A stretch of DNA of 41,395 nt from Caryophanales bacterium UBA3668. Its GTDB lineage: Bacteria > Bacillota_I > Bacilli_A > RFN20 > CAG-826. The position numbers and the translations under genes were made by a program. This document shows, in pieces, positions 6,068-41,395 of this stretch (position 1 is the stretch's first letter; each line of letters opens with the position of its first letter). Below the pieces are notes generated by a model. That model ran no database searches and had not been told where the DNA came from. It was given only the letters and a program-made list of their open reading frames with translations. The stretch is taken from NCBI GenBank assembly GCA_002373085.1, contig DFJP01000069.1:1-41395 (forward strand), read 5' to 3'.

Positions 6068-6072
6068 TCGTT

Positions 6073-14932: not shown

Positions 14933-14933
14933 A

Positions 14934-26913: not shown

Positions 26914-27828
26914 TTATCGAATAATTGTTCCGCTTTTCTCTTCAAATGCTTTTTCAGCGTTTTCTAGAGCAGCAATAATTGCAGTCTTATTTGGACAGTT
27001 TGTTAAGAACTTAACACAGGCATTAACTTTTGGATACATGCTACCTTTAGCGAAGTAGTCACCTTTTAGATATTCCTTAATTTCATTAAGTGAAACATTA
27101 GTGAGTTTCTTTTCGTTTGGTTGTTTGTAGTTAATACAAACATTATCGATAGCAGTTAAAATTACTAAGTAATCTGCATCCACTAATTCTGCTACTAATG
27201 CGGAAGCATAATCTTTATCAATAACAGCAGCGACGCCTACTAATTTATTGCCTTCTTTAATGACAGGGATGCCACCTCCACCAGCGCAGATGATGACATT
27301 TCCACTTTTTACTAAAGTAGAAATAACTTCTTTTTCTTCAATATCGATTGGAAGTGGTGAAGGAACTACTCTTCTATATCCTCTTCCAGCATCTTCTTTC
27401 ATTGTCCATCCCTTTTCTTTAGCAACTACTTCTGCTTCTTCTTTTGAATAGAATGTTCCAACTGGTTTAGAAGGATTTTGAAATAATGGGTCATTTTTGT
27501 CTACGACAACTTGAGTAACAACAGTGGCAACATTTCTCTTAACGCCTTGCGCCTTTAATTCGTTTTGTAAAGCGTTTTGGAGATGGAAACCAATATATCC
27601 TTGTGACATTGCTCCACATTCTGGGAAAGGCATGTCTGGGACGCTTTTAGCTTCGTTAAAAGCATTGTTGATCATTCCTACTTGTGGTCCATTACCATGG
27701 ACAATGACAACTTCATGACCATCTTTCATGAGCTTAACAATATATTTAGCGACATTACTCACTAAAAGTTTTTGTTCTTCAGCGTTATTGCCTAAAGCAT
27801 TACCGCCTAAACTGACGACATATCTCAT
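26914..27828 (-). CDS. arcC: Carbamate kinase
   Basis: The enzyme converts carbamoyl phosphate and ADP to ATP, CO2 and ammonia, and so yields ATP in fermentative nitrogen catabolism. The 304-aa protein has the family start VSLGGNALG, the phosphate-binding VIVHGNGPQVG, the GAMSQGYIGF segment and CAGGGGIPV. No arginine deiminase or ornithine carbamoyltransferase genes adjoin it. The purine-type operon 1.7 kb away suggests a role like E. coli YqeA, which sits in the equivalent cluster. A promoter (TTGTTT, 16 bp, TATAGT) and GAGG ribosome site are visible. Confidence 0.95.
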   Translation of the reverse strand: MRYVVSLGGNALGNNAEEQKLLVSNVAKYIVKLMKDGHEVVIVHGNGPQVGMINNAFNEAKSVPDMPFPECGAMSQGYIGFHLQNALQNELKAQGVKRNVATVVTQVVVDKNDPLFQNPSKPVGTFYSKEEAEVVAKEKGWTMKEDAGRGYRRVVPSPLPIDIEEKEVISTLVKSGNVIICAGGGGIPVIKEGNKLVGVAAVIDKDYASALVAELVDADYLVILTAIDNVCINYKQPNEKKLTNVSLNEIKEYLKGDYFAKGSMYPKVNACVKFLTNCPNKTAIIAALENAEKAFEEKSGTIIR

Positions 27829-27852
27829 TTCTTATACCTCGTTAACATTTTT

Positions 27853-27880
27853 ACTATATCACTTTTATTGACCCAAACAA
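27853..27880 (-). promoter_or_regulatory. Carbamate kinase promoter
   Basis: On the minus strand TTGTTT (27880-27875) and TATAGT (27858-27853) are spaced by 16 bp. GAGG follows eight bases before the ATG. Confidence 0.55.
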
Positions 27881-27895
27881 TTAAATATTTGTTTG
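27874..27895. promoter_or_regulatory. Inverted repeat between the carbamate kinase and lgt promoters
   Basis: CAAACAA and TTGTTTG are perfect 7-bp arms separated by 8 bp. The left arm covers the -35 of the carbamate kinase promoter, and the right arm ends just before the candidate lgt -35 (TTTATA, 27899-27904). Confidence 0.35.
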
Positions 27896-27936
27896 TCTTT
27901 TATAAACCCATTAAAAGGGAGTAAAATAGTTATACT

Positions 27937-28710
27937 ATGTATCCTAATTTATTTGGTATCGATGGCTTCTCAATGACTTTCATGATTATCGTTGGGGTTA
28001 TTGCGGCCGCAGCGCTTTTATTTGTCTATTTGCACAAGAATGGAGTTCACTCAAATTCATTTCTTGATTTAGGCGTTGTTGTTATCGTTACAGTAATAGT
28101 AGGAATCATCTTTGCAATCTTGTTTGAGAATGTTTATGAAGCGATTAAACACTCAGTAAATGGAGAGCAACCTCATTGGACTTGGGGTATGACTTTCTAT
28201 GGTGGATTAGCCGGTGGAGTTCCTACATTCTTATTAACCTATAAATTCTATTATTTAAGACATAACAAACCAATTTTAGATAGGATTGTAATTATCGCTC
28301 CTGCGTGCATTACTTTAGGCCATGCGTTTGGTAGAATTGGCTGTTTCTTATCTGGATGCTGCTATGGAATTGAGACCGACGCCGCAAATGGAATTCTTTT
28401 CCCGGGAATGGATCATCCAGTTGTTCCAACTCAAATAATTGAATCAATCTTTTTATTCACTTTAACTGTCGTTTTAGCTTTATTTGCGTTCAAATATTCG
28501 TTTAAGTATAATTTTACAATTTATATGGTATTTTATGGAGTTTTTAGATTTATTATCGAATTTTTCAGGGGAGATGAGAGAGGACAACTCGCTGGATTAT
28601 CGCCATCACAATACTGGTGCATACTCCTTGTACTTCTTGCTTTCCCAGTCTATTTACTCTTAAAGAAAAAGATGCCAGTGTATAACGAGGACAAAGCAGA
28701 TGAGATTTAG
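27937..28710 (+). CDS. lgt: Prolipoprotein diacylglyceryl transferase (Lgt family)
   Basis: Lgt attaches diacylglycerol to the lipobox Cys of prelipoproteins in the membrane. The 257-aa protein has about seven membrane helices, the short YPNLF start, TWGMTFYGGLAGG (family YGGL region) and the signature HAFGRIGCFLSGCCYG, a variant of the H-GRIGNF-NGE motif. The loop with Cys-Cys-Tyr-Gly is typical of clostridial-type family members rather than of E. coli Lgt, so a related acyltransferase role is possible. The large lipoprotein at 10401 would be a substrate. No ribosome site: a TAAAAT box lies 9 bp before the ATG. It overlaps the next gene by 11 bp. Confidence 0.8.
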   Translation: MYPNLFGIDGFSMTFMIIVGVIAAAALLFVYLHKNGVHSNSFLDLGVVVIVTVIVGIIFAILFENVYEAIKHSVNGEQPHWTWGMTFYGGLAGGVPTFLLTYKFYYLRHNKPILDRIVIIAPACITLGHAFGRIGCFLSGCCYGIETDAANGILFPGMDHPVVPTQIIESIFLFTLTVVLALFAFKYSFKYNFTIYMVFYGVFRFIIEFFRGDERGQLAGLSPSQYWCILLVLLAFPVYLLLKKKMPVYNEDKADEI

Positions 28711-29455
28711 ATTTATTGATATAGCGTTATTTGCTTTAACATTCATTTTTGTTAATGCTTTCCCAGTTGATCTTCTTCCACTTGATATCGTTGGTCAATT
28801 AGCGGTTAGAATTGGATTAAGAGTTATCCTACTCGCATATTATATTTATACATTGTGGAGAAGAAGAATTAACATCTTCAGATTTGCTAATTATCGAAGA
28901 GTTTTATTGTTTGTTCCTTTCCTATTAGTGTGCTTCTCTAACATTATTGCTGCGGGTATTGCTGGTTTACCATTTACCGCAGTTACAGTTGATCCACTTT
29001 ATCTCTCGCTAATCATTGTTTACCATCTTGTTGGAGTTACTATTGAGGAATTCTTATTTAGACTTTTTATCCAAAACAGTCTTATCTATGCTTCCTCGAT
29101 AAAAAGAATCTTGGCTAGTGGCGCAATCTTTGCGTTATTCCACTTGATTAACATTGTTAACGTTAGCTCAATCGACGCTTTAATTGCTGTTGCAGTTCAA
29201 GTCGTATATGCCTTTGGCATTGGTCTATTGCTCGCAATGATTTATGAATATACATATTCCATCCCTGCATGTATTTGTTTCCACTTTATATTTAACTTAT
29301 TAAATATGGTCTTGGTAGAGAACGTATTTATGTTTAATATCCCAATGCTTACGTATTACTTAACTGCAGTGGGATGTGGATTAGTTGTAGGAATTTACGC
29401 AGTCCTAATTTACTTACTGATACTTCAAAAAAACGAAAGATATTTTAGAGAATAA
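28700..29455 (+). CDS. CPBP family intramembrane metalloprotease
   Basis: The 251-aa membrane protein has the three CPBP (Rce1/Abi-like) motifs: EEFLFR (EExxxR), FALFHLIN (FxxxH) and HFIFNLLN (HxxxN), within about seven or eight helices. These residues coordinate the zinc-activated water in the family. Bacterial members act in peptide processing, bacteriocin immunity or surface protein maturation; the target here is unknown. It starts inside the end of lgt and ends at a terminator, so the two form an operon, perhaps both handling membrane-anchored proteins. Confidence 0.85.
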   Translation: MRFRFIDIALFALTFIFVNAFPVDLLPLDIVGQLAVRIGLRVILLAYYIYTLWRRRINIFRFANYRRVLLFVPFLLVCFSNIIAAGIAGLPFTAVTVDPLYLSLIIVYHLVGVTIEEFLFRLFIQNSLIYASSIKRILASGAIFALFHLINIVNVSSIDALIAVAVQVVYAFGIGLLLAMIYEYTYSIPACICFHFIFNLLNMVLVENVFMFNIPMLTYYLTAVGCGLVVGIYAVLIYLLILQKNERYFRE

Positions 29456-29477
29456 GCCGTTTGTTCGGCTTTTCTTT
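29454..29477 (+). terminator. Terminator of the lgt-CPBP operon
   Basis: AAGCCG/CGGCTT (29454-29459, 29466-29471) forms a 6-bp stem with a 6-nt loop, followed by a T-rich tract. It separates this operon from the molybdenum hydroxylase operon. Confidence 0.85.
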
Positions 29478-29498
29478 TACTCTCACCTATTGATGATT

Positions 29499-29514
29499 TG
29501 TTGATAAATCAACA
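29499..29514. promoter_or_regulatory. Perfect palindrome over the -35 of the molybdenum hydroxylase operon, candidate operator
   Basis: TGTTGAT-AA-ATCAACA has two perfect 7-bp arms around a 2-bp centre and fully contains the -35 box (29501-29506). It is the clearest operator-like site in the window. No regulator gene is visible within the operon portion seen here. Confidence 0.5.
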
Positions 29515-29529
29515 TCTACAAAATATAAT
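29501..29529 (+). promoter_or_regulatory. Promoter of the molybdenum hydroxylase operon
   Basis: TTGATA (29501-29506) and a perfect TATAAT (29524-29529) are spaced by the ideal 17 bp. Predicted initiation is at 29536-29537, on or next to the A of the first ATG, so the first gene should be read from a leaderless mRNA. Confidence 0.75.
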
Positions 29530-29536
29530 TATAGTA

Positions 29537-30100
29537 ATGGTAGATGGAATAATTCTCGCTGGTGGAAAATCCACCAGAATGAAAACTAACAAGATGCTTT
29601 TAACTATTAATGAGCATCCAATTATTTGGCATACTCTTAAAAGCATTGAACCATTCGTTAACAAAGTGATTATTGTCACTGGTTTATATGACAAAGAGAT
29701 TAGAGAAGCATTAAAAGGAGAGAATGTTACTTTTGTTCATAACTTAAATTATGAAAAGGGAATGTTTTCTAGTGTTCAAAAAGGAATTAGAGAAACCACA
29801 AATGATTTCTTTATCATTCCTGGAGATTGCCCGTTTGTCAAACCCGACACCTTTAAAGCTTTATTAGCAGGAAAAGGCGAAGTAAGAGTGCCTAGATATT
29901 TAAACGAAGACGGACACCCAATTTATATCTCAAAGAAATATAAAAACGAAATATTATCAATGCCATTAGATAGTAATCTAAAAATATTTCGTGATAGCAA
30001 AAACTATGAGATAATTAATGTCGAAGACAAAAACATAGTAATTAATCTAAATGAATTTTTAGATTACCAAAATATAAAGATAACTGAGGAAGGAAGATAG
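29537..30100 (+). CDS. mocA: Molybdenum cofactor cytidylyltransferase (MocA/YgfJ-like NTP transferase)
   Basis: MocA attaches CMP to molybdopterin to form the MCD cofactor that some molybdenum hydroxylases need. The 187-aa protein shows the MobA-type nucleotidyltransferase fold: GIILAGGKSTRMKTNKMLL at the N terminus, then ITGLYD-like (IVTGLYD), then FIIPGDCPFVKP with the metal-binding Asp. The start at ATG 29537 places the protein immediately before the nucleotide-binding loop, as in the family; the TTG at 29498 is rejected because the promoter lies between. It is the first gene of the operon, 1 bp before the FAD subunit, which supports MCD-type enzymes downstream. A MobA role on guanylated cofactor is less likely in this context. 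Confidence 0.82.
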   Translation: MVDGIILAGGKSTRMKTNKMLLTINEHPIIWHTLKSIEPFVNKVIIVTGLYDKEIREALKGENVTFVHNLNYEKGMFSSVQKGIRETTNDFFIIPGDCPFVKPDTFKALLAGKGEVRVPRYLNEDGHPIYISKKYKNEILSMPLDSNLKIFRDSKNYEIINVEDKNIVINLNEFLDYQNIKITEEGR

Positions 30101-30101
30101 T

Positions 30102-30896
30102 ATGAAAGTAAATGAGTACTACCGTGCATCTTCATTAGAAGATGCCTATCGCAAGTTACAAGAAGATCCAAGAAACGTAATTCTCGCTGGCGGACTTTGG
30201 ATTAAGAAAATAGGGCAAGATGTTAATACATTGCTCGATTTATCTACCCTTGGCTTAAATCAAATTAGCGAAACTAAGTCAGAAGTTATTGTCGGAAGCA
30301 TGGTTACTCAAAGAGATTTTGAGAATTCTCCAATCGTTCGTAGCCTTTTCAATGATTCAATTGCTTTTGCCACTAGAGAAGTCATGGGAGTGAACTTCCG
30401 TAATATCGCCACCATAGGTGGATCTATTATGGGAAGATATCCTTTCTCTGATGTTATATGTGGATTATTACCATATGATGTCACTTTGGAATTCTATCCG
30501 GCTCAATCAATGAGTCTAGAAGACTACCTAAACTATAAGGGAAAAATTAACGCTATCTTAGTAGCGATTCATATCAAAAAAGGAAACGGAAAAGGCTTCT
30601 ACAAAAAGGTAAAAACAACGGCCTTAGATTTTCCTATTATCAATTTCGCGATTGCAAAAGCTGATGGCAATTATCGTATTGCAGTAGGCGCTAGACCAAT
30701 GGTTGCATCCTTGGCTCATAAAGCGATGGATTACCTCAATAAAGAAGCAAAAGTTGGTCCAGAACAATATAAGAAAGCCGCTGAAATGACAGTTGAAGAG
30801 CTTTCTTACTTAGATAATAAAGACTCAAGTGCGGAGTACCGTACTGATTTAACAAAAGTCTATGTTAGACGTGGACTTGAGGAGGTTAGCAAATAA
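30102..30896 (+). CDS. Molybdenum hydroxylase FAD-binding subunit, atypical (YgfM-like)
   Basis: This 264-aa protein has the FAD_binding_5/CO dehydrogenase flavoprotein layout and would pass electrons from the iron-sulfur subunit to an acceptor. Motifs deviate from the canonical ones: ILAGGLWIKK replaces the AGGTDL loop, and RNIATIGGSIMGRYPFSD replaces the usual IGGN-A-SPAGD. The canonical version is present in the second FAD subunit at 39929. The position next to an XdhD-like Mo subunit matches E. coli ygfM beside xdhD. It follows mocA by 1 bp and its stop overlaps the next ATG. FAD binding is likely; the acceptor is unknown. Confidence 0.82.
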   Translation: MKVNEYYRASSLEDAYRKLQEDPRNVILAGGLWIKKIGQDVNTLLDLSTLGLNQISETKSEVIVGSMVTQRDFENSPIVRSLFNDSIAFATREVMGVNFRNIATIGGSIMGRYPFSDVICGLLPYDVTLEFYPAQSMSLEDYLNYKGKINAILVAIHIKKGNGKGFYKKVKTTALDFPIINFAIAKADGNYRIAVGARPMVASLAHKAMDYLNKEAKVGPEQYKKAAEMTVEELSYLDNKDSSAEYRTDLTKVYVRRGLEEVSK

Positions 30897-31345
30897 TGTT
30901 AGTTACTTTCTTTTTGAACAATACCGAAGTCTCATATTCTGTTAACCCAGGCGAATATCTCGCTGATACTTTAAGAAAACATGGACTTAAATCTATTAAG
31001 GTTGGTTGTAATGAATCAAGTTGTGGTAGTTGTACCCTTTTAGTGGACAACAAACCAATGATGAGCTGTTCATTATTAACTGCCTCAGTTGAAGGCAAAC
31101 ACATCACCACAATTGAAGGTATCCAAGAAGAGGCAGCAAAAATTTCACGTTGTTTCTCTGAAGAAGGAGCGGATCAATGTGGCTTCTGTAATGTTGGTTA
31201 TGCTTTAGTTATTTATTCTCTTAAAAGAGAATATAAGAACCCAACCGATGAAGAAATTAAAAATTATATCGTCGGCAATCTCTGCCGTTGCTCTGGCTTA
31301 CATTCTCAAATGAATGCCATTAAAGCCTACTTAAAGGAGGAATAG
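30896..31345 (+). CDS. Molybdenum hydroxylase [2Fe-2S] subunit, atypical
   Basis: The 149-aa protein carries two [2Fe-2S] clusters. The ferredoxin-like domain has GCNESSCGSC plus a downstream Cys (SC at about residue 62), and the helical domain has CGFC and CRC. All eight ligands are present, although CNESSCGSC differs from the usual CGEGxCGAC and QCGFCNVGY from CGFCTPGM. It links the FAD and Mo subunits of the first hydroxylase. E. coli XdhD carries the corresponding domain fused to its Mo subunit; here it is a separate gene, 3 bp ahead of the Mo subunit. Confidence 0.88.
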   Translation: MLVTFFLNNTEVSYSVNPGEYLADTLRKHGLKSIKVGCNESSCGSCTLLVDNKPMMSCSLLTASVEGKHITTIEGIQEEAAKISRCFSEEGADQCGFCNVGYALVIYSLKREYKNPTDEEIKNYIVGNLCRCSGLHSQMNAIKAYLKEE

Positions 31346-31348
31346 AAG

Positions 31349-33676
31349 ATGACTGTCGATAAAAAGAAAATGCGTGTTGTTAATAATAAAACATATTCAG
31401 TTGATGGCAAAGCCTTAATGCAAGGCAGAAGCTATTACACTGATGATTTAGCAGCACAAAATAGTCTAACTATTAAAATCTTACGTTCTCCACACGCTTT
31501 TGCTCATATCAAAAATATTGATGTTAGCGAAGCTAAGAAACTCAACGGTGTTGAATTAGTCTTAACTTATAAAGACGTTCCACATGTCTCTTTCTCTAGA
31601 GCAGGCCAAGGCTATCCAGAACCTTCACCACACGATAAGTTCATCTTGGATGAATATGTCCGTTATGTTGGAGATGAAGTGGCAATGGTTGCCGCTATTA
31701 CTCCTGAGATTGCAGAAGAAGCACTTAAATTAATTAAAGTTGAATACGAAGTATTAGAACCGGTATTAGATTTTGAAAAAGCTTTTGAAAACAAATCAGT
31801 TATCCACCCTGAAGATGGCATTTGTGAAATGTTCCCAATTGGTTTTGAACCAAAGAAGAATGTTGCCGCTGCATATGAGATGGAAGTTGGTAATGTCGAA
31901 GAAGAACTTAAAAAGTCTGATGTCGTAGTGGAAGAAGTGTTCTATACACAAGCACAAGCTCATGCGATGCTTGAAACACATAGCAGCAATTCTCGTTTAG
32001 ATGAACACAATAGATTAGTTATTTATTCCTCTACCCAAACCCCATTCCATATGAGAAGAATTATGGCAACGACACTTGGCATTCCAGTAAGTCAAATTCG
32101 TGTAATTAAACCAAGAGTTGGTGGTGGTTTTGGTGGAAAACAAGCTTTCCACGGTGAATTTTTCTGTGCTTTAACAACTTTACGAACAGGCAAACCTGCA
32201 AGATGCGTTTACACTCGTGAAGAAGTATTTGAAAGCAGTTATACACGTCACCCAATGAGAATCACAATGAAAATTGGTGCGATGAAAGACGGAAGAATCA
32301 ACGCGATTGATTGTCGTTCATTAAGTGACACTGGTGCGTATGGTGAACACTCGTTAACAGTCTTTATGATTGTTGGTAGTAAAGTCTTACCACTTTATAA
32401 CAAAGTCGACGCTGTCCGTTTTGGTGGACAAGTTGTATACACAAACCATGTCTCAGCCGGAGCCTTCCGTGGATATGGTGCTATTCAAGGTAACTATGCT
32501 CTAGAAGCAACTATTGACGTCTTAGCAGAAAAGCTAAAGATGGATCCAAAAGTTATTAGAGAAATGAATTCCATGAGAGAAAAGGAAACTTCACCAATCT
32601 TTGAGATTATGGGTGAAGGTACCAAAGGTACAGCAATGATAATGGAATCATGTAAGCTTCCATATTGCATTAAACGTGGTGCTGAATTAATTGATTGGGA
32701 AAAGAACTATCCATGCAAGAAAGTTAGTGATACCAAAGTTAGAGGATATGGCATGGCTATAGCTATGCAAGGTAGCGGTATTCCATTCATGGATATGGGT
32801 AGCTGTTCTATTAAACTCAATGATGGTGGTTCATACATGGTTACTGTTGGAGCAACTGATATTGGTCAAGGTAGTGACACTGTCATTTCTCAAATCGTTG
32901 CTGAAGAATTAGGAACAACAGTGGACAAAGTATTAATTTACTCATCTGATACTGACCTCACTCCATTTGACTGCGGAGCTTACGCAAGTAGTACAACTTA
33001 CATCTCTGGAAATGCTGCTTGGAAAGCTGCACAAAAGATGAGAAAACGTTTAACTAAGGAAGCTGCAGTATTCCTTGAAACTAAAGAAGAAAATGTTGAA
33101 TTTGATGGCAAAACCTTCACTTCTGGCGATAAATCCATCACTTTGAACGATATGTCAGTAAAGATGCTTTATAACAAGAACTTACAACAAGTTCAAGTTG
33201 TAGAAAGCTATTATGGACACGTTTCTCCGCCTCCATTTATGGCGGCTTACGCTGAAGTAGAAGTTGATATTGAAACTGGTGAATATGAAGTTCTTAATTA
33301 TGTCACTGTTACCGATTGTGGAACAACTATCAACCCAATGCTTGCTAGAGGACAAGTTGAAGGCGGTGTTGTCCAAGGTTTAGGTATGGCGTGCTTTGAA
33401 GATGTTAAATATGACAAGAAAGGAAAGCTTATTTCTAATAACTTCCTTAACTATCACATCCCAACACACAAAGAAATTCATAAACTCACCACTGAATTTG
33501 CTGATTCTTATGAACCAACAGGCCCATTTGGTGCTAAATCAGTTGGTGAAATTGGTATTGATACTCCACCAGCGGTTATTTGTAATGCAATTTATAACGC
33601 GACAGGTGTAAGAATCCATAGATTACCAATTACTCCTGAAAAGATCCTTAAAGGAATGAAAGAGTTGAAAAAATAA
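31349..33676 (+). CDS. Molybdenum hydroxylase large subunit, XdhD-like
   Basis: This 775-aa protein holds the molybdopterin site of a xanthine oxidase-family enzyme. It has the N-terminal a/b hammerhead domain (RSYYTDDL), RVGGGFGGKQAF (about 256), GAFRGYGAIQGN, GATDIGQGSDT and the catalytic Glu in GAKSVGEIGI (about 733). Stretches such as GSGIPFMDMG and FDCGAYASSTTYISGNAA resemble E. coli XdhD (putative hypoxanthine oxidase) rather than XdhA. A purine or purine-derived N-heterocycle is the likely substrate; the precise one is inferred. Gene order FAD-FeS-Mo is the mirror of the second trio at 37382-40780. No in-frame TGA (selenocysteine) is seen. A hydantoinase follows after 2 bp. Confidence 0.87.
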   Translation: MTVDKKKMRVVNNKTYSVDGKALMQGRSYYTDDLAAQNSLTIKILRSPHAFAHIKNIDVSEAKKLNGVELVLTYKDVPHVSFSRAGQGYPEPSPHDKFILDEYVRYVGDEVAMVAAITPEIAEEALKLIKVEYEVLEPVLDFEKAFENKSVIHPEDGICEMFPIGFEPKKNVAAAYEMEVGNVEEELKKSDVVVEEVFYTQAQAHAMLETHSSNSRLDEHNRLVIYSSTQTPFHMRRIMATTLGIPVSQIRVIKPRVGGGFGGKQAFHGEFFCALTTLRTGKPARCVYTREEVFESSYTRHPMRITMKIGAMKDGRINAIDCRSLSDTGAYGEHSLTVFMIVGSKVLPLYNKVDAVRFGGQVVYTNHVSAGAFRGYGAIQGNYALEATIDVLAEKLKMDPKVIREMNSMREKETSPIFEIMGEGTKGTAMIMESCKLPYCIKRGAELIDWEKNYPCKKVSDTKVRGYGMAIAMQGSGIPFMDMGSCSIKLNDGGSYMVTVGATDIGQGSDTVISQIVAEELGTTVDKVLIYSSDTDLTPFDCGAYASSTTYISGNAAWKAAQKMRKRLTKEAAVFLETKEENVEFDGKTFTSGDKSITLNDMSVKMLYNKNLQQVQVVESYYGHVSPPPFMAAYAEVEVDIETGEYEVLNYVTVTDCGTTINPMLARGQVEGGVVQGLGMACFEDVKYDKKGKLISNNFLNYHIPTHKEIHKLTTEFADSYEPTGPFGAKSVGEIGIDTPPAVICNAIYNATGVRIHRLPITPEKILKGMKELKK

Positions 33677-33678
33677 AT

Positions 33679-34992
33679 ATGTACGATTTATTACTCAAGA
33701 ATGGTTTCGTGTACCTCAATGGTCGTTTCGTAAAGAAAAACATTGGGGTTACTGACGGAAAGATTGCCTATATAGGTAATGAAGAGGTCAAGGCCGAAAA
33801 GGTTGTTGATGTATATCAAAGAAAAGTGTTGCCAGGATTAATTGATCCACATGTTCACTTTGATTTATTCTGTGGCACAATTCCTAGCCGCGACGACTTT
33901 TACTATGGAAGCAAATCTGCAGCTTATGGTGGTGTAACCACAATTGTGGATTTCCTTGATCCAAGTAGAAACGCTAAAGAATTAAAAGAATCATATTATG
34001 AAAGATTAAAAAAAGCTGAAAAGTGTAATGTAGATTATCACTTCCATGCTTGCATTAGAGAACCTAACGGAAATCTTGAAGAATATATTCTTATGATGAA
34101 AACCTTAGGCATTAACACCGTTAAATTATTCACAACCTATTCCGAAACACATAGACGTACATATGATAGAGATATCAAAAAGTTATTAGCTTTATCTAGA
34201 AAGCATAGATTCCTCGTTTTAGCGCATATTGAAAACGATGAAATGATTAACCGCGATGAATCATTAACATATCAAGACTTAGCGGAGGCTAGACCATCTG
34301 AAGCAGAGACTTCTGAAGCCTTAAAGTTATGCAAATTTGCTAAACAAACTAAGGGATATTTATACATGGTCCACTGTTCTAGTGGAAACACCCTTCAAAA
34401 GATTTGTGAGAAATACTATAGCATCCTTGGAAAGAACATTTTCATCGAATCTTGCCCTCAATATTTTGTGTTCAATAAAGATAAATTGAAGGGTAAACAA
34501 GGATACTTATATACTTTTGCTCCACCTCTTAGAAGTGAAGAGGAAAGAAAATTATTAATTAAGAACATTGAATACGTAAATACAATAGGAACAGATCACT
34601 GCGCTTTTAACATTGAAGATAAAGAAACTCATACCTATCTTAAGGGCATGCCTCTAGGAGTCGGTGGCATTGAATCTAGCTTCCAAATTATGTACGAAAT
34701 GTTTGGAGATCAAATAATTAACAAGATGAGTAAAAATATTGCGAAAATTGAGCGATTTGCTGGAAAAGGTGAAATAAAAGTCGGAAATTTCGCGGATTTT
34801 GTCATCCTTTCTGGAGCAACACATGAAGTTGGAAAACCACATGGTGCAGTCGATTATTCGATTTACGAGCACATCAAAGTCAATACCACAATTGAATCCA
34901 CAATGATTAGAGGAGAGTTTGTTCTCTATAAAGGAAAATTCATCTCTCACAAAGGTCAAATTATCAACTGTGGGAAAGGAGTTTCCAAATGA
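33679..34992 (+). CDS. hyuA: Hydantoinase/dihydropyrimidinase-family amidohydrolase
   Basis: The enzyme is expected to open a cyclic ureide ring (hydantoin- or dihydropyrimidine-like) hydrolytically. The binuclear metal site is visible: HVHF (about 58-60), the carbamylated Lys in NTVKLFTTYS (about 149), His in LAHIEN (about 182), His in MVHCSSG (about 231) and the catalytic Asp in GTDHCAF (about 306). The 437-aa length is normal. E. coli HyuA/YgeZ sits in the equivalent xdh-yge cluster. It lies between the first hydroxylase and SsnA with a 4-bp ATGA overlap downstream, so its substrate is probably a purine breakdown product. Allantoinase or dihydroorotase activity cannot be ruled out. Confidence 0.88.
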   Translation: MYDLLLKNGFVYLNGRFVKKNIGVTDGKIAYIGNEEVKAEKVVDVYQRKVLPGLIDPHVHFDLFCGTIPSRDDFYYGSKSAAYGGVTTIVDFLDPSRNAKELKESYYERLKKAEKCNVDYHFHACIREPNGNLEEYILMMKTLGINTVKLFTTYSETHRRTYDRDIKKLLALSRKHRFLVLAHIENDEMINRDESLTYQDLAEARPSEAETSEALKLCKFAKQTKGYLYMVHCSSGNTLQKICEKYYSILGKNIFIESCPQYFVFNKDKLKGKQGYLYTFAPPLRSEEERKLLIKNIEYVNTIGTDHCAFNIEDKETHTYLKGMPLGVGGIESSFQIMYEMFGDQIINKMSKNIAKIERFAGKGEIKVGNFADFVILSGATHEVGKPHGAVDYSIYEHIKVNTTIESTMIRGEFVLYKGKFISHKGQIINCGKGVSK

Positions 34993-36287
34993 AAGCAATA
35001 ATCAACGCTCGAATATACGATTACGATAAATACATCGAAAATGGCTACGTTGTTTTTGATAAAAAAATCGTAAAAGTAGGTGAAATGAAGTCATTTAAAA
35101 ACGATGGCTATCAACTTATAGATGCTAAGGGTCAAATGTTGCTTCCAAATTTCGTTTGTGCCCACTCTCATATCTATTCAATTTTCGCTAGAGGTCTAGC
35201 TTTACCATTTAATCCAAAAAACTTCCAAGACATTCTTGATCAAATGTGGTGGAAACTTGATTCTCAAATTGATAATGAGATTACTTATTATTCTGGAATC
35301 GCTGCTGGAAGTGAATTTTTACTTAATGGTGTCACCACAATAATTGATCACCATGCTAGTGGAACTGAAATTATCGGTTCACTTACCTCTTTAAAGAAAG
35401 CACTAAATAACACATTACACATGAGATCAATCTTGTGTTTTGAAAGTAGTGATCGTTATCCAATCAGAGATTGCATTAAAGAGAATATGAGTTTTGCAAA
35501 CAAGAACCACACTGAATTTGTAAGTGGATTATTTGGAATGCACGCTTCTATGTCTTTAAGTGATAGTAGCCTTAAATTAATTTCTAAGAAATTAAATAAC
35601 ACTCCTATTCATATTCATGTCGCAGAAAGTGATATGGATGAAAATGATTGTTTAGAAAAATATGGAACAAACATCATTTCTAGATTGGATAAATATAATT
35701 TAATTAATAAAGATTCTCTTATTGTTCACGGGGTTTTCATGAACGATGAAGAACTTGATATCATCAAAAATAGAGGCGCATATATTGTTGTAAATACAAC
35801 AAGTAATTTAAATAACGCGGTTGGAATTCCTGATATTAAGAAATATATGGAACATAACATTCCAGTTATGATTGGTAATGATGGCCTATCTAGTTCAATG
35901 GCAACTGAGTATTTAAATGCGATGTATCTTACACATTTAAAGAACAGTAATCCTACTGCTATGAATATTGGTCATATCTTTGATATAATCAATAATGCAT
36001 ATAGTTATGTTGGACGCCGATTAGGCATTAATATTGGCAAAATTAGAGAAGGCTATGTCTCTGATTTTATGCTTATCCCATACACTCCATTTACAGAGAT
36101 GAACTCCAATAACGCTTTTGGTCATGTGTTTTATGGTTTATTCCCTAACTTTAGACCAAACGATGTCTTTGTAGATGGAAGTAGATTAGTTAAAAATGGT
36201 GAACTAACATCTAAAAAAGCAAAAGCAGAACTAATTGAGTCAAGAAAATATAGTGAAAAACTTTGGAAGAAAGTGAAGGAAATCTAG
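34989..36287 (+). CDS. ssnA: SsnA-like aminohydrolase (amidohydrolase family)
   Basis: This is a mononuclear metal deaminase/hydrolase of the TRZ/ATZ-guanine deaminase type. The metal ligands are intact: AHSHIYS (about 59-61), His in HIHVAESD, His in VHGVFMN and Asp in GNDGLSS. The segment FARGLALPFNPKNFQDIL resembles SsnA, which in E. coli lies beside ygfK and xdhD. The 432-aa length matches. Its natural substrate is not established; within this operon it could remove an amino or imino group from a purine-derived ring. Its ATG overlaps the hydantoinase stop (ATGA), so the two are translationally coupled. Confidence 0.87.
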   Translation: MKAIINARIYDYDKYIENGYVVFDKKIVKVGEMKSFKNDGYQLIDAKGQMLLPNFVCAHSHIYSIFARGLALPFNPKNFQDILDQMWWKLDSQIDNEITYYSGIAAGSEFLLNGVTTIIDHHASGTEIIGSLTSLKKALNNTLHMRSILCFESSDRYPIRDCIKENMSFANKNHTEFVSGLFGMHASMSLSDSSLKLISKKLNNTPIHIHVAESDMDENDCLEKYGTNIISRLDKYNLINKDSLIVHGVFMNDEELDIIKNRGAYIVVNTTSNLNNAVGIPDIKKYMEHNIPVMIGNDGLSSSMATEYLNAMYLTHLKNSNPTAMNIGHIFDIINNAYSYVGRRLGINIGKIREGYVSDFMLIPYTPFTEMNSNNAFGHVFYGLFPNFRPNDVFVDGSRLVKNGELTSKKAKAELIESRKYSEKLWKKVKEI

Positions 36288-36289
36288 CT

Positions 36290-37375
36290 ATGGATTTAAC
36301 AACCAAATTTGATGGATTAACCCTAAAGAACCCACTTATGCCAGCAGCAGGACCACTTGTTGGAGATGCTGAAAAATTATTATGGCTTAAAGATCAAGGA
36401 CTTGGTGCTTTAGTAGCGAAAACCATTTCCACTAAAGATGCTCATATTCCTCATCCATGTATTGTTGGAGAGGGTAATAGTGCAATCTTTAACTGTGAAT
36501 TATGGACAGAATATCCAAAAGAAAAGTGGATTAATGAATTCCTTCCAGAATTAAAGGCTAAAAAAGGAGATACACCTCTTATTATATCCGTAGGATATAC
36601 AAAAGAAGATATGGAAGAATTAATTCCTCTTCTTGATGAATTTGCAGATGCCTTTGAAGTGAGCTGTCACTATGTCGGAACTGACCACGAGAAGATGGCA
36701 GAAACTGTTAGAACAATTAGAAAGCACACGAATAAACCTTTCTATATGAAAATATCACCACATATTCCTGATCCAGCAGGATTTGCTCATACCATTAAGG
36801 CAAATGGCGCTAATGGTGTTGTGGCAATTAATTCCTTAGGGCCAAGTATGGTTATTGATGTTGAGAACCGTCAAATGGCGTGTTCTAACGATAAAGGGTT
36901 TGTGTGGATGAGTGGACCAGTAATTAAGCCACTTGCTTTAGCAACCGTTTACACAATTAAACAAGCCGAACCATCTTTAACTGTTATTGGTGTTGGTGGA
37001 GTAGCTTCTGCTAAAGATGTCATCGAATTCTTATTAGCAGGTGCTTCTGCTGTTGGAATGCTTTCAGCACCAATGCTTAGAGGAAAAGAATTATACGCAA
37101 AGATTATTAATGACCTTCCAAAAGAATTAGAGAAATATGGTTTCTCTTCTATTCAAGAAGTCATTGATACAAAACTTACAAATAAAGTTACTTATGAACA
37201 CGAAATGCCAAGTGTGGATTCTAGTAAATGTTCACACTGTGGAATGTGTTCAAGAAACTGCCCATATTTTGCAATTGATATGGACGAAAACAAAGTACCA
37301 GCATTTAATCCAAACAAATGTTTCAAATGCGGATTATGTGCATCCAAATGCCCAACAAAAGCTATTAAATTTTAA
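36290..37375 (+). CDS. PreA/dihydroorotate dehydrogenase-like flavoprotein with two 4Fe-4S motifs
   Basis: The 361-aa protein has a class 1 dihydroorotate dehydrogenase-type TIM barrel that binds FMN (FDGLTLKNPLMPAAGP at the start, VVAINSLGP, VIGVGGVASAKDVIEFLLAGA near the end), then a ferredoxin domain with CSHCGMCSRNCP (about 313) and CFKCGLCASKCP (about 344). This is the layout of PreA, the catalytic subunit of bacterial dihydropyrimidine dehydrogenase. Its NAD-binding partner PreT is absent here. In E. coli the cluster has the large oxidoreductase YgfK at this position. It may reduce or oxidise a ring intermediate before the hydantoinase step; this is inference. GAAGGA nine bases before ATG 36290 sets the start. 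Confidence 0.85.
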   Translation: MDLTTKFDGLTLKNPLMPAAGPLVGDAEKLLWLKDQGLGALVAKTISTKDAHIPHPCIVGEGNSAIFNCELWTEYPKEKWINEFLPELKAKKGDTPLIISVGYTKEDMEELIPLLDEFADAFEVSCHYVGTDHEKMAETVRTIRKHTNKPFYMKISPHIPDPAGFAHTIKANGANGVVAINSLGPSMVIDVENRQMACSNDKGFVWMSGPVIKPLALATVYTIKQAEPSLTVIGVGGVASAKDVIEFLLAGASAVGMLSAPMLRGKELYAKIINDLPKELEKYGFSSIQEVIDTKLTNKVTYEHEMPSVDSSKCSHCGMCSRNCPYFAIDMDENKVPAFNPNKCFKCGLCASKCPTKAIKF

Positions 37376-37381
37376 TCATTT

Positions 37382-39475
37382 ATGATTAACGAATACAAAA
37401 CATCAGTCAAAAAAGTCGATAATGAAGAAAAGATGTCAGGAATGGCAATCTTTACTGGCGATATCCGTATGGATAACGTCCTTTTTGCAATTCCTGTTAG
37501 AAGTACAGTATCTCACGGAAAAATCTTAAAGATTAATGTTCCAAGTTTACCAAGAGGATATTACTTCATCTCTGCAAAAGATATTGTTAAAGAAAATGTT
37601 TGTAACATTATCGCTTCTGACTGGCCTGTATTCGCTGATAAAGAAGTTAATTATAAAGGTGAGACCATAGGTCTTATTGTTGGTCGTAAAAAATTAACAT
37701 GTTTAAGCCTTGCTAAAGATGTCCATGTTGAATACGAAGAACTTGAACCAGTGTATGAAATGAAAAATTCATATGTTCATAAAGAGTTCAACAAAGGCAA
37801 CATAGAAGTCTTTAAAAATGCGAAAAAAGTATTTTCTGAAAGCTTTGAAACTGGATATCAAGAACATATCTATTTAGAACCACAAGGAATGCTTATGTGG
37901 TTAGATGGTAATAAAATTACCATTAAGGCATCAATGCAATGTCCTTTCTATATCAAAAAAGCGGTTGAAAGAACATTAGGATGTGACTCTAGTAGAGTTA
38001 GAGTGATTCAACCTGCTGTCGGTGGTGCTTTCGGCGGTAAAGAACATTATCCATCTTTGATGGCGGCGCAACTAGCGACTGCAATTGTTAAGATTAAAAA
38101 ACCAATTAAGATGATCTTTGACCGTAAGGAAGATATTACCTTCACCACAAAAAGACATCCAAGTAAAACTGATATCTCAGCTTATCTGGATGATAAAGAC
38201 AATATTTTAGGTGTCAAAATTCATGTTGGAATTGATGGAGGAGCATATATTGGCTGTTCAATGGTTGTTCTTTCCCGTGCCTTGATTGCATGTACTAACA
38301 CATATACCTTTGATAATGTCGCAGTTAGTGGAGATGCCTATTGCACTAACAAGGTTCCAAGCGCTGCATATCGTGGATTTGGCTCACCTCAATCAATCTT
38401 TGCAATGGAGTTATTTATTAACCATTTAGCGGACTTCTTGCACGTTAATCGACTTGAGTTAAGAAATAAATACTTAGTTAAAACCGGTGATATAAGTGTC
38501 ACAAACGGTAAATTCAGAGACCCAATTATTTTAAAAGAACTCATGGATAAAGCTATGGAGATGAGTGACTACAAAAAGAAAGTAGTCGAATATTCTAAAC
38601 CAGGTTCTTTTAAAGGAATTGGAATGTCAACTTTCTTACATGGATGTGGTTTTACTGGAAGCGGTGAAAGCACAATCATCAAAGCTAAAGTTAGAATTAG
38701 AAAAGACAAAAATGGTGTCGTCACCTTCTATACTTCCCAAGTAGATTTTGGACAAGGTAATAGAACGACATTAAAACGCATTGTAGTTGATACTTTGGGT
38801 ATTCCAGAAGACCAAGTAATATATGACGCACCTGATACAGATAAGACATTATCAACAGGACCTACTGCCGCTAGTAGAACAATTATTATTGTTGGTGGAC
38901 TAGTTGGTAAAGCTGCTCAACACTTAAAAGAAATCTGGCAAGATGGTGTAGAACAAGAAATTGTTGAACCATATGTTGCTCCATCCTTTATTAAATGGGA
39001 TGAACCAACTATGCAAGGTGATGCATATCCTGGATATGCTTGGGGAGTCAACATTGTTGAAGTAAGTGTTGATCCAATTACATATCAAGTGAATATCGAT
39101 GGATGCTGGTCAACATATGATGTTGGTCACGCGATTGATGAAAGAATAATGATTGGACAAGCTGATGGTGGATTAGCCCAGGCTTTAGGTTGGGCCTATT
39201 TAGAAAAAGAAGAAATCGAAAATGGTGTTTTCAAACAAAAGACACTTAGTGACTATGTCATCCCAACAATGATGGATTTACCAAAGATGGAAACTGCCTT
39301 TATTGATAATCCATTCCCTTATGGCGCTTTCGGGGCTAAAGGGGCTGGAGAATTAACGTTTGTAGGAGGCGCTCCTGCATTCTGTCTTGCTCTTGAGCAA
39401 GCAATCAATAGAAAAGTACATAAGATCCCAGCGACACCTGAATACATTATGGAGTTAATCGAACATGGAAATTAG
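37382..39475 (+). CDS. xdhA: Xanthine dehydrogenase-type molybdenum subunit
   Basis: This 697-aa protein is the Mo-binding subunit of the second hydroxylase, of the xanthine dehydrogenase XdhA type. Motifs are canonical: KMSGMAIFTGDI (hammerhead start), AVGGAFGGKEHYPS, AAYRGFGSPQ with the substrate-side Arg, VDFGQGNRTT and the catalytic Glu in GAKGAGELTF (about 656). It forms a heterotrimer with the next two genes, which overlap it and each other. With guanine deaminase in the window, xanthine or hypoxanthine is the natural candidate substrate. The first set has only distant similarity to this one, so the two sets did not arise by recent duplication. Confidence 0.87.
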   Translation: MINEYKTSVKKVDNEEKMSGMAIFTGDIRMDNVLFAIPVRSTVSHGKILKINVPSLPRGYYFISAKDIVKENVCNIIASDWPVFADKEVNYKGETIGLIVGRKKLTCLSLAKDVHVEYEELEPVYEMKNSYVHKEFNKGNIEVFKNAKKVFSESFETGYQEHIYLEPQGMLMWLDGNKITIKASMQCPFYIKKAVERTLGCDSSRVRVIQPAVGGAFGGKEHYPSLMAAQLATAIVKIKKPIKMIFDRKEDITFTTKRHPSKTDISAYLDDKDNILGVKIHVGIDGGAYIGCSMVVLSRALIACTNTYTFDNVAVSGDAYCTNKVPSAAYRGFGSPQSIFAMELFINHLADFLHVNRLELRNKYLVKTGDISVTNGKFRDPIILKELMDKAMEMSDYKKKVVEYSKPGSFKGIGMSTFLHGCGFTGSGESTIIKAKVRIRKDKNGVVTFYTSQVDFGQGNRTTLKRIVVDTLGIPEDQVIYDAPDTDKTLSTGPTAASRTIIIVGGLVGKAAQHLKEIWQDGVEQEIVEPYVAPSFIKWDEPTMQGDAYPGYAWGVNIVEVSVDPITYQVNIDGCWSTYDVGHAIDERIMIGQADGGLAQALGWAYLEKEEIENGVFKQKTLSDYVIPTMMDLPKMETAFIDNPFPYGAFGAKGAGELTFVGGAPAFCLALEQAINRKVHKIPATPEYIMELIEHGN

Positions 39476-39932
39476 TTTTATTTTGAACAATAAAAAAGTA
39501 ACAATTGATGTCACTCCATCAATGCGTCTTTTAGATGTCATTCGTGAAGAATTACATTTAACAGGAACTAAAGAAGGGTGTGGAGAAGGCGAATGTGGAG
39601 CATGCACTGTTTTAGTTAATGGCGAACCATATAATTCATGTCTTACTCCTGCCGCTAATGTGATTGGTAAAGAAGTAATGACTATTGAAGGATTTAGAGA
39701 AACAAAAGCGTATCGAGTTATCGCTGATGCATTCGCTAATCAAGGTGGTAGCCAATGTGGCTTCTGTACACCTGGCATGATTTTAGCGAGTTATGCTGTT
39801 CTTAAGAAGAACCCTCATCCAACCGAAGAAGAAATTAGAGAAGCTTTATCAGGCAACTTATGCCGCTGTACTGGATATAACTCCATAGTTAACGCAGTAA
39901 TGCTAGCTAGCAAGAAAGGAATAGAATTATGA
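39465..39932 (+). CDS. xdhC: Xanthine dehydrogenase-type [2Fe-2S] subunit
   Basis: The 155-aa protein has all canonical cluster ligands: CGEGECGACTVLVNG and a following Cys for the ferredoxin-like cluster, then CGFCTPGM and CRCTGY for the second one. It conducts electrons from molybdenum to FAD. It starts 11 bp inside the Mo subunit gene and ends 4 bp inside the FAD subunit gene. Order Mo-FeS-FAD differs from the Mo-FAD-FeS order of E. coli xdhABC. Confidence 0.93.
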   Translation: MEISFILNNKKVTIDVTPSMRLLDVIREELHLTGTKEGCGEGECGACTVLVNGEPYNSCLTPAANVIGKEVMTIEGFRETKAYRVIADAFANQGGSQCGFCTPGMILASYAVLKKNPHPTEEEIREALSGNLCRCTGYNSIVNAVMLASKKGIEL

Positions 39933-40780
39933 TCCAACATTTCATTCCTTCTAATCTAAATGAAGCTTTAGAAATTCTTTCTAAGCACAACTGTTTTATT
40001 TTTGCTGGTGGCACTGATTTAATGGTCCAAAAACATATTAGTACTGGAGTACTCCCTCATTTTGAAAAAGACATTCTCTACGTGATGGATTTAAAAGAAC
40101 TAGATTATATTAATCTAGATAGTGATAAAAATATCCACATTGGTGCCTCTACTAGATTTATTGAAATTGAAGAGTCTCCTCTTGTTCCAGAAATCTACAA
40201 AAAAGTTATTAGAGAAATTGCTTCTCCTAATATCCGTAATATGGCCACCATGACTGGTAATATCGCTAACGCTTCCCCTGCTGGAGATAGTATTGTCCCA
40301 TTAGTGCTTAATGATGCAGATGTAGTTTTAGCCTCAGTTAATGGAGAAAGAGCTATCTCAGTTAATGACTTCATCTTAGGCGTTAGAAAGATAGATAGAA
40401 AACCAGATGAAATGATTAAAGAAATCGTCTTAAAACCTCAAGAACTCAACTATTTTTATAAGAAAGTTGGTTCTAGAAAGGCTGAATCAATTACTAAAGT
40501 TTCTTTCTTAGGAGCATATAGAGTTGAAGGTGGAATTATCAAAGATTTTAGAGTGGCCTTTGGTAGTGTCGCTATTAAAGTTGTTCGTAATACAAAAGTT
40601 GAAAAGAAATATATCGGTAAATCAATTAATGAATTAAAAGTTAATCAAGTGGTGCAAGATTACGCAAAACTCATTGCCCCAATTACTGATCAAAGAAGCA
40701 ACAAAGAATACCGCCACAAAGTGGCAATGAACTTATTAAAGAAATTCCTAATAGATTTAAAAGGAGAAACCGATGAATAA
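39929..40780 (+). CDS. xdhB: Xanthine dehydrogenase-type FAD-binding subunit
   Basis: The 283-aa FAD subunit has the canonical loops FIFAGGTDLMVQ and RNMATMTGNIANASPAGDS, both involved in FAD binding, followed by the CO dehydrogenase flavoprotein C-terminal domain (about 175-280, FYKKVGSRKAESI). It receives electrons from the iron-sulfur subunit and passes them to NAD or another acceptor. Its end overlaps the next ATG by 8 bp, which couples it to the PLP enzyme. Confidence 0.92.
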   Translation: MIQHFIPSNLNEALEILSKHNCFIFAGGTDLMVQKHISTGVLPHFEKDILYVMDLKELDYINLDSDKNIHIGASTRFIEIEESPLVPEIYKKVIREIASPNIRNMATMTGNIANASPAGDSIVPLVLNDADVVLASVNGERAISVNDFILGVRKIDRKPDEMIKEIVLKPQELNYFYKKVGSRKAESITKVSFLGAYRVEGGIIKDFRVAFGSVAIKVVRNTKVEKKYIGKSINELKVNQVVQDYAKLIAPITDQRSNKEYRHKVAMNLLKKFLIDLKGETDE

Positions 40781-41395
40781 ATATATTCGTGGATACCGTT
40801 GCACAGTCTGTGGAGAATTTTTTGAAACAAAAGAGGCGATGATGACTTGCCCTCACTGCGGAGAAAAAGGAATCCTAGACGTCGAATATGATTATGATGC
40901 TTTAAAACAAGTTTTAACCAAAGACTATTTTAAAAACAATCGTGATTATTCAATGTGGAGATATTTCCCGCTAATGGGAATTGAAGAAGAAAATATCCAT
41001 AAGATGCTTAGAATCGGATGGACCCCACTTGTGAAGTCCTATAATTTATCAAAAGAATTAGGATTAAAAGAACTCTATATTAAAGATGATGGTCTTAATC
41101 CTAGTGGAAGTAGTAAAGATAGGGCTAGTGGAGTTGCTGTATTAAAAGCTATTGAGGCAGGAGCAAAAGTTATTTCATGTTCCTCTACTGGTAACGCTGC
41201 TAGTAGCTGTGCATGTCACGCTGCTCATATGGGAATTCCAGCAGTTATCTTTGTTCCAAAAAGAGCCCCTATTGGTAAATTAACTCAAATCTCATTATAT
41301 GGAGCTACTTTAGTAGTGGTTGATGGCGATTATAAAGCCGCCTTCCGCTTATCTAAAGAAGCAATTAATAAATATGGTTGGTATAACCGTAACGC
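40773..41395 (+). CDS. Threonine synthase-like PLP enzyme (truncated by window edge)
   Basis: The first 207 residues are visible. An N-terminal zinc ribbon (CTVCGEFF, then CPHCGEKG) precedes a fold-type II PLP domain with the cofactor Lys in PSGSSKDRAS and the phosphate loop SSTGNAASSCACHAA. This is threonine synthase ThrC by overall pattern. In the operon it occupies the place of E. coli YgeX, a fold-type II diaminopropionate ammonia-lyase, so a lyase acting on a purine-derived amino acid is an alternative; the missing C-terminal half would help decide. AAAGGAG seven bases upstream sets the start, and it overlaps xdhB by 8 bp. The gene continues beyond the right edge. Confidence 0.8.
   Translation, partial: MNKYIRGYRCTVCGEFFETKEAMMTCPHCGEKGILDVEYDYDALKQVLTKDYFKNNRDYSMWRYFPLMGIEEENIHKMLRIGWTPLVKSYNLSKELGLKELYIKDDGLNPSGSSKDRASGVAVLKAIEAGAKVISCSSTGNAASSCACHAAHMGIPAVIFVPKRAPIGKLTQISLYGATLVVVDGDYKAAFRLSKEAINKYGWYNRN

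Follow-up and report, generated by a model that had tools for sequence, protein, structure and literature searches.

A compact urate-type operon with two molybdenum hydroxylases in rumen and gut Bacilli, and a candidate importer for its cofactor

The window analysed in this work is the whole 41,395-nucleotide stretch of contig DFJP01000069.1 from Caryophanales bacterium UBA3668, to which all window coordinates refer. Its right-hand part (29537-41395) is occupied by eleven tightly packed plus-strand genes, mocA through PLP1, which resemble a purine and urate catabolic operon with two molybdenum hydroxylases. The gene order is mocA, FAD1, FeS1, Mo1, HyuA-like, SsnA-like, UacX-like, Mo2, FeS2, FAD2 and PLP1 (FAD, flavin adenine dinucleotide; FeS, iron-sulphur; Mo, molybdenum; PLP, pyridoxal phosphate), and the genes are separated by gaps of 1-6 bp or overlap by 1-11 bp, given a start of the UacX-like gene at the ATG at 36290. 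The original prediction for this DNA had described a compact ten-gene operon; all the genes it named are in place, on one strand and with the right spacing, except that they number eleven. Its proposal of a single promoter fared less well: a terminator-like hairpin (29454-29471) and an 11/12 sigma-70-like site (29501-29529) do lie immediately 5' of mocA, but neither kind of site is enriched in comparison to shuffled sequences (10 promoter-like sites against a shuffle mean of 11.4, and 1 terminator-like site against 1.4).

The first gene encodes a MocA-like molybdenum cofactor cytidylyltransferase (29537-30100; TIGR03310 at 125 bits, below the cut-off of 186; PF12804; 26% identity to E. coli MocA). 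It is followed by the FAD subunit FAD1 (30102-30896; PF00941, PF03450), the 2Fe-2S subunit FeS1 (30896-31345; PF00111, PF01799) and the XdhD-type molybdenum subunit Mo1 (31349-33676), together a proposed urate-to-yanthine reductase. In comparison with E. coli K-12 proteins, Mo1 is closest to XdhD (36%, 485 bits, vs 34%, 395 bits for XdhA), and it contains the insertion that holds Glu606 of E. coli XdhD, which is absent from both E. coli XdhA and Mo2. The MGEG motif with the Glu606-equivalent residue is found in Mo1 and in every one of the 39 Mo1 sequences that reach 600 aa, 3 shorter rows having been excluded. The second molybdenum subunit, Mo2 (37382-39475; homologues in 25 genome loci), is of the xanthine dehydrogenase (XDH) type, scoring 218 bits with E. 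coli XdhA and 155 with XdhD, and it is accompanied by the 2Fe-2S subunit FeS2 (39465-39932; PF00111, PF01799) and the FAD subunit FAD2 (39929-40780; PF00941, PF03450). Mo2 has the Glu/Arg/Phe/Glu set at the positions of bovine XDH residues 802, 880, 914 and 1261, which we take to be the purine-binding residues. Simple motifs recover the four residues in 27, 29, 30 and 25 of 31 Mo2 rows, respectively; the rows without them are deep relatives, G129, G137, G010 and one fragment. The prediction that Mo1 is XdhD-like and Mo2 Xdh-like is thus borne out by the scores and by the Glu606 insertion. A selenium-dependent XDH label (TIGR03311) for the hydroxylases was rejected, as it was over cut-off in 0 out of 12 genomes.

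Between the two hydroxylases lie three further enzymes. The HyuA-like hydantoinase (33679-34992; TIGR02033 at 228 bits, below the cut-off of 393) retains the metal ligands of E. coli HyuA (HxH, Lys, His and Asp), and the SsnA-like aminohydrolase (34989-36287; best family NF005540 at 354 bits, below the cut-off of 444) likewise has its ligands HxH, HIHxAE and Asp. The third is a UacX/PydAc-like flavoprotein (36290-37375) with two 4Fe-4S motifs, matching PF01180 and Fer4 and no FAD/NAD domain; it was judged to be of the UacX type by domain content, and it resembles Clostridioides difficile UacX as described in PMC12507026. The operon runs out of the window in PLP1 (40773-41393; PF00291), a threonine-synthase-like fold-type-II PLP enzyme whose 3' end lies past the window and whose full length is 415 aa in the related locus L001. 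Carbamate kinase, ArcC, is encoded 1.7 kb upstream of mocA (26914-27828; TIGR00746 at 396.6 bits, cut-off 358.25; 52% identity to E. coli YqeA), i.e. at the distance originally given, but on the minus strand and hence divergent from the operon.

Relatives were collected as 25 loci from a scan of public genome contigs with the Mo2 alignment. By title, their records belong to Erysipelotrichaceae, Bacillales or Bacilli, and several name rumen or other gut samples; the "Mollicutes-like" lineage that had been suggested is not established by these titles. The operon order recurs in the 25 loci over the extent that each of them covers, with a split Mo1 in L004, and this recurrence is more than chance. 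The divergent arcC also stands beside the operon in many relatives. Past PLP1, 18 of the 25 loci have three further open reading frames (ORFs) of, by size, about 455, 404 and 336 aa. In L001 the genes 3' of PLP1 encode a CysK-like PLP enzyme (PLP2, L001:14641-16008, for which 7 relatives show 84-92% identity to the L001 copy), YgeY and a YgeW-like carbamoyltransferase. This YgeY, outside the window, reaches 691 bits with TIGR03526 (cut-off 321.5) and is 69% identical to E. coli YgeY. The carbamoyltransferase scores between OTC and YgeW (OTC family 258 bits, YgeW 182-193 bits, all under the cut-offs) and shares the STRTR and LPAD motifs with E. coli YgeW. A rightward extension of the operon had been expected to hold such YgeY- and YgeW-like genes, as it does, and also a purine permease, which was not found between arcC and the carbamoyltransferase gene; the single gene scanned past the latter (in L001) has no Pfam match, and an NCS2 permease (PF00860) is over cut-off in just 2 of 12 relative genomes, one of them G007.

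The reductive degradation of urate is described as passing through yanthine, dihydro-yanthine, ureidomethyl-hydantoin, diureidopropionate and diaminopropionate to pyruvate (PMC12507026, Li et al. 2025; PMC12990295), and its enzymes as XdhD-YgfM, YgfK or UacX, SsnA, HyuA, YgeW or UacY, YgeY and YgeX (PMC12507026; commentary PMC12990295). Set against this list, the operon is very probably a variant of the reductive ("yanthine") pathway, an assignment we regard as strong. As had been predicted, it is related to the urate cluster of E. coli but rearranged: the order differs, UacX stands in for YgfK, which is not in the operon, and two PLP enzymes other than YgeX occupy the expected place of YgeX. 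The diaminopropionate ammonia-lyase itself is over its cut-off of 276 in none of 12 genomes, the top matches (38-54 bits) being PLP1 by position. Because PF00291 is the marker for YgeX in the survey of PMC12507026, that survey could count PLP1 or PLP2 as YgeX. In the scheme we propose, Mo2/FeS2/FAD2 would oxidise hypoxanthine and xanthine to urate, Mo1/FeS1/FAD1 would reduce urate to yanthine and UacX would reduce yanthine further. Both rings would then be opened, by SsnA and HyuA. One ureido group would leave as carbamoyl phosphate through the YgeW-like carbamoyltransferase and ArcC, with formation of ATP, YgeY would remove the second, and PLP1 and/or PLP2 would convert diaminopropionate to pyruvate and ammonia. 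The individual reactions and electron carriers are putative; since the two oxidations from hypoxanthine to urate give four electrons and the two reductions consume four, the operon could balance itself. The interpretation originally given, a complete fermentative purine pathway in a Mollicutes-like lineage, is partly supported overall.

Both hydroxylases need a molybdenum cofactor (Moco), and the lack of Moco biosynthesis genes had been named as an observation that would refute the pathway. Such a lack is what most relatives show: MoaC is over cut-off in 3 out of 23 operon genomes and MoaA in 2 out of 12. The molybdenum enzymes nevertheless stay conserved, and we read this, from the relatives' genomes, as pointing to import of the cofactor and not as a refutation of the pathway. 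The recA control was over cut-off in 22 of the 23 genomes and present in two pieces in the remaining one, and XdhC was matched in 17 of the 23. MoeA_N (PF03453) was found in none of the 23, which is not evidence by itself because the genomes with MoaC carry a short MoeA-like gene; it lies beside moaA and moaC (L030, L031, L032, L190), and the G007 protein shows the MoCF domain alone on a scan. The case for missing Moco synthesis is instead based on MoaA, MoaC and the tblastn search of G004. The compact Moco operon (L030:3289-9291, L031:4167-10216 and L190) comprises moaA, the short MoeA-like gene, moaC, a MOSC-Mog fusion and modABC; neither moaD nor moaE was noticed near these operons, for which no dedicated follow-up search was made.

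One genome lacking moaC, G004 (1,301,575 bases in 9 contigs, with 43 tRNA genes, none for His), was searched throughout by tblastn at 1e-3 with the Moco and Mod proteins of E. coli and G007. MoaB, MoaC, MoaD, MoaE, MoeA, the short MoeA, Mog/MOSC and ModA were all unmatched at this threshold. The remaining matches were to E. coli MoaA (27% over 131 aa), ModB (27% over about 100 aa) and MoeB (at most 32% over 198 aa), and those to ModC resembled general ABC ATPases. The uvrB control was recovered with 53% over 673 aa.

Next to the XdhC-like gene and a lipoprotein gene, G004 encodes a membrane protein of 224 aa (about 220 aa in general), which we call S. A profile of S has matches in 20 of the 23 operon genomes and misses exactly the three that have MoaC (G007, G012, G023). 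The same exclusion is seen in a wider survey of 279 genomes of the order, of which 45 have a molybdenum hydroxylase above the cut-off (47 at E 0.001), 43 have S and 5 have MoaC. Among the 45 hydroxylase genomes, 39 have S only (one of them, G219, on the strength of a fragment of 33 positions where a contig ends), 4 have MoaC only (G007, G012, G023 and G137), 2 have neither (G125, G133) and none has both, so that S is found in 39 of the 41 without MoaC. The 234 genomes lacking a hydroxylase contain S in 4 cases (G122, G141, G151, G220) and MoaC in 1 (G279). Fisher p values for these counts are 1e-4 and 1e-36, with kinship ignored. A 195-aa ORF before mocA in the MoaC-bearing G137 was considered as S and rejected, being lipoprotein-like and without a match to the S profile. 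Beyond the order, S was searched in a protein database alone (357 matches; among the best 120 of the 357, one is named, as "hypothetical protein").

The neighbourhood of S was read in 36 of the 43 genomes that have it, i.e. in all except G124, G126, G127, G134, G139, G140 and G223. S stands beside xdhC in 14 of 17 xdhC loci, the three without S being G007, G012 and G023, and with G122, G138, G151, G220 and G263 it adjoins xdhC in 19 genomes; L106 gives an example outside the window, with S and the lipoprotein gene on the minus strand (98-772 and 807-1346). S also occurs directly after Mo1 inside the operon (G108, G109, G152, G218 and G263, the last then followed by xdhC), after Mo1 by coordinates in G219, and directly before mocA in G129. 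Eleven genomes have neither xdhC nor an operon gene near S in the stretch read, some of these stretches ending at contig ends: G014, G021, G121, G131, G141, G142, G144, and also G005, G009, G015 and G016, where S is beside an mnmA-like gene that in G004 lies near xdhC and S. The lipoprotein gene accompanies S in 10 of the 17 xdhC loci; its product is modelled as a beta-sandwich with no Foldseek match under 0.001. In deep relatives a THEP1-like NTPase gene (PF03266) lies between S and HyuA (L181:6913-7392, L184:4525-5001, L185:11685-12176), and this NTPase type shows no kinship to the lipoprotein beside S.

No Pfam or NCBIfam family matched S above chance, nor did any known S-component sequence family, but its predicted structure suggests a fold like that of the S-component of an energy-coupling factor (ECF) transporter (such as YkoE, 5edl). 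Genes for EcfA-EcfA-EcfT (EcfA1A2T), looked for in G004 only, are by our reading present there. We propose that S, with a shared ECF motor, imports a molybdopterin-type cofactor, which MocA and XdhC would finish and insert. We moderately favour a urate-fermentation operon combined, across most of this lineage, with imported Moco (MoaC is absent from 41 of the 45 hydroxylase genomes), and lean, slightly less firmly, towards the statement that most of these bacteria import the cofactor and finish it with MocA and XdhC, the import step being suggested by comparative genomics. The window's own organism presumably behaves like its nearest relatives: G001, closest to it on the Mo1 tree, has S and lacks MoaC.

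On the Mo1 tree (39 rows) the genomes with MoaC are four separate tips, four changes are forced by well supported branches, and a single clade of them is rejected (approximately unbiased test, p-AU 3e-67). The RecA tree (20 genomes) likewise does not unite the three MoaC-bearing genomes it includes (p-AU 0.005; 3 changes, 2 of them forced). G023, with MoaC, and G020, with S, are sisters on both trees. We only just favour the complete picture, in which rumen and gut Bacilli ferment purines with two molybdenum hydroxylases, are auxotrophic for Moco and import it through an unnamed ECF-type S-component, while, judged by the Mo1 tree, the Moa/Mod operon and the importer replaced one another on four or more occasions.

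Several observations weigh against cofactor import. The operon of deep relatives includes S and encodes no permease, NCS2 permeases are as scarce as reported above, and the permease of G007, a genome with MoaC and no S, could replace S there. The main rival reading, possible if on balance unlikely, is that the urate pathway is right and that S is an S-component importing xanthine, hypoxanthine or urate, the cofactor being made by an unrecognised route; new Moco components are also one of the options offered for orphan molybdoproteins in the excerpts of PMC6147048 used here. On the other hand, S is missing in exactly the four hydroxylase genomes with moaC, it adjoins the cofactor-insertion gene xdhC in most xdhC loci, and G012, one of the two MoaC-bearing genomes checked (G007 and G012; G023 and G137 were left out), has no NCS2 permease that could take its place.

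That the cells make Moco normally and the genes were lost in metagenome assembly seems improbable. Most records are indeed titled metagenome-assembled genomes without a stated completeness, and none is closed. However, MoaC is seen in 5 of 279 genomes as against 45 with a hydroxylase, recA is recovered almost throughout, G004 lacks the genes in as few as 9 contigs, and random gaps would not coincide with S in 39 of 41 genomes. Less credible still is the idea that both hydroxylases act on other N-heterocycles (e.g. nicotinate-like ones) and not on purines. It draws on the best PDB sequence match of both molybdenum subunits, 4-hydroxybenzoyl-CoA reductase, and on the fact that no curated XDH cut-off was reached; the company of SsnA-, HyuA-, UacX-, YgeY- and YgeW-like genes and ArcC, and the Glu606-equivalent in Mo1, argue for purines.

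A few other features were noted along the way. The genes between arcC and mocA (27937-29455) are Lgt-like, with scores below the lgt cut-offs, and CPBP-protease-like; both are missing from this place in L014, L015, L021 and L024, four loci whose sequence includes arcC. The window also holds a bacterial small signal recognition particle (SRP) RNA (128-212; RF00169, 56.6 bits), a TldD/PmbA-type pair on the minus strand (13607-16334) and, 3' of an iron alcohol dehydrogenase gene, a 387-aa ORF (6061-7224) with zero Pfam matches. Across 11 sources the SRP RNA was the sole Rfam match, and no riboswitch was found.

It is useful to set these findings beside what has been described elsewhere. The operon represents a known pathway in a new form, and the new part would be cofactor import, as suggested by comparative genomics. 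The excerpts of PMC6147048 used here report several hundred organisms with a partial molybdenum trait, chiefly molybdoproteins without a complete Moco pathway; they leave the cofactor source of such orphans open, offering new biosynthesis or molybdenum-independent forms, and place Tenericutes/Mollicutes among the clades that lack the trait. The bacteria studied here share with those organisms molybdoenzymes without a complete pathway and differ in that presence, absence and location here single out one candidate gene as the replacement, which makes the source of the cofactor directly testable. Among the papers listed by literature searches, titles and abstract starts showed work on the diet of C. 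elegans but no bacterial Moco importer and no Moco S-component, which does not prove absence from print, and a term search for "molybd" in the S-component paper PMC11109136 was negative. If true, the proposal would mean that bacteria have an importer for molybdenum cofactor and feed one another with Moco in finished form, which would become a shared good in gut communities, comparable to the dietary Moco used by C. elegans (PMC9793310). In the fold suggested by its model, S is like the ECF S-components RibU, ThiT and PanT, and it is unlike known ones in having no Pfam or NCBIfam match and in its link to molybdenum hydroxylase genes.

Compared with the reductive urate cluster of E. coli (xdhD, ygfM, ygfK, ssnA, hyuA, ygeW, yqeA, ygeY and ygeX), the common elements are an enzyme of the XdhD type that carries the Glu606 motif, two hydrolases that are SsnA-like and HyuA-like, a YgeW-like carbamoyltransferase, carbamate kinase and YgeY (PMC12507026). 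Here the genes form one operon in a different order, Mo1 has separate FeS and FAD subunits, UacX replaces YgfK, YgeX is missing and two other PLP enzymes are present, a whole xanthine dehydrogenase lies within the same operon, and the operon is without purine permease, yqeB and yqeC. Purine oxidation and urate reduction would be united in one operon able to balance its own redox, and the anaerobic urate pathway would extend to small genomes of rumen and gut Bacilli. The C. difficile variant with UacX and UacY, compared by its published description only (PMC12507026), shares with the present operon the UacX-type DHO_dh/4Fe-4S reductase without an FAD domain. Unlike C. difficile, the operon retains the carbamoyltransferase and carbamate kinase route instead of UacY, and whereas the C. 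difficile XdhD reportedly has no FAD subunit, both molybdenum enzymes described here have one.

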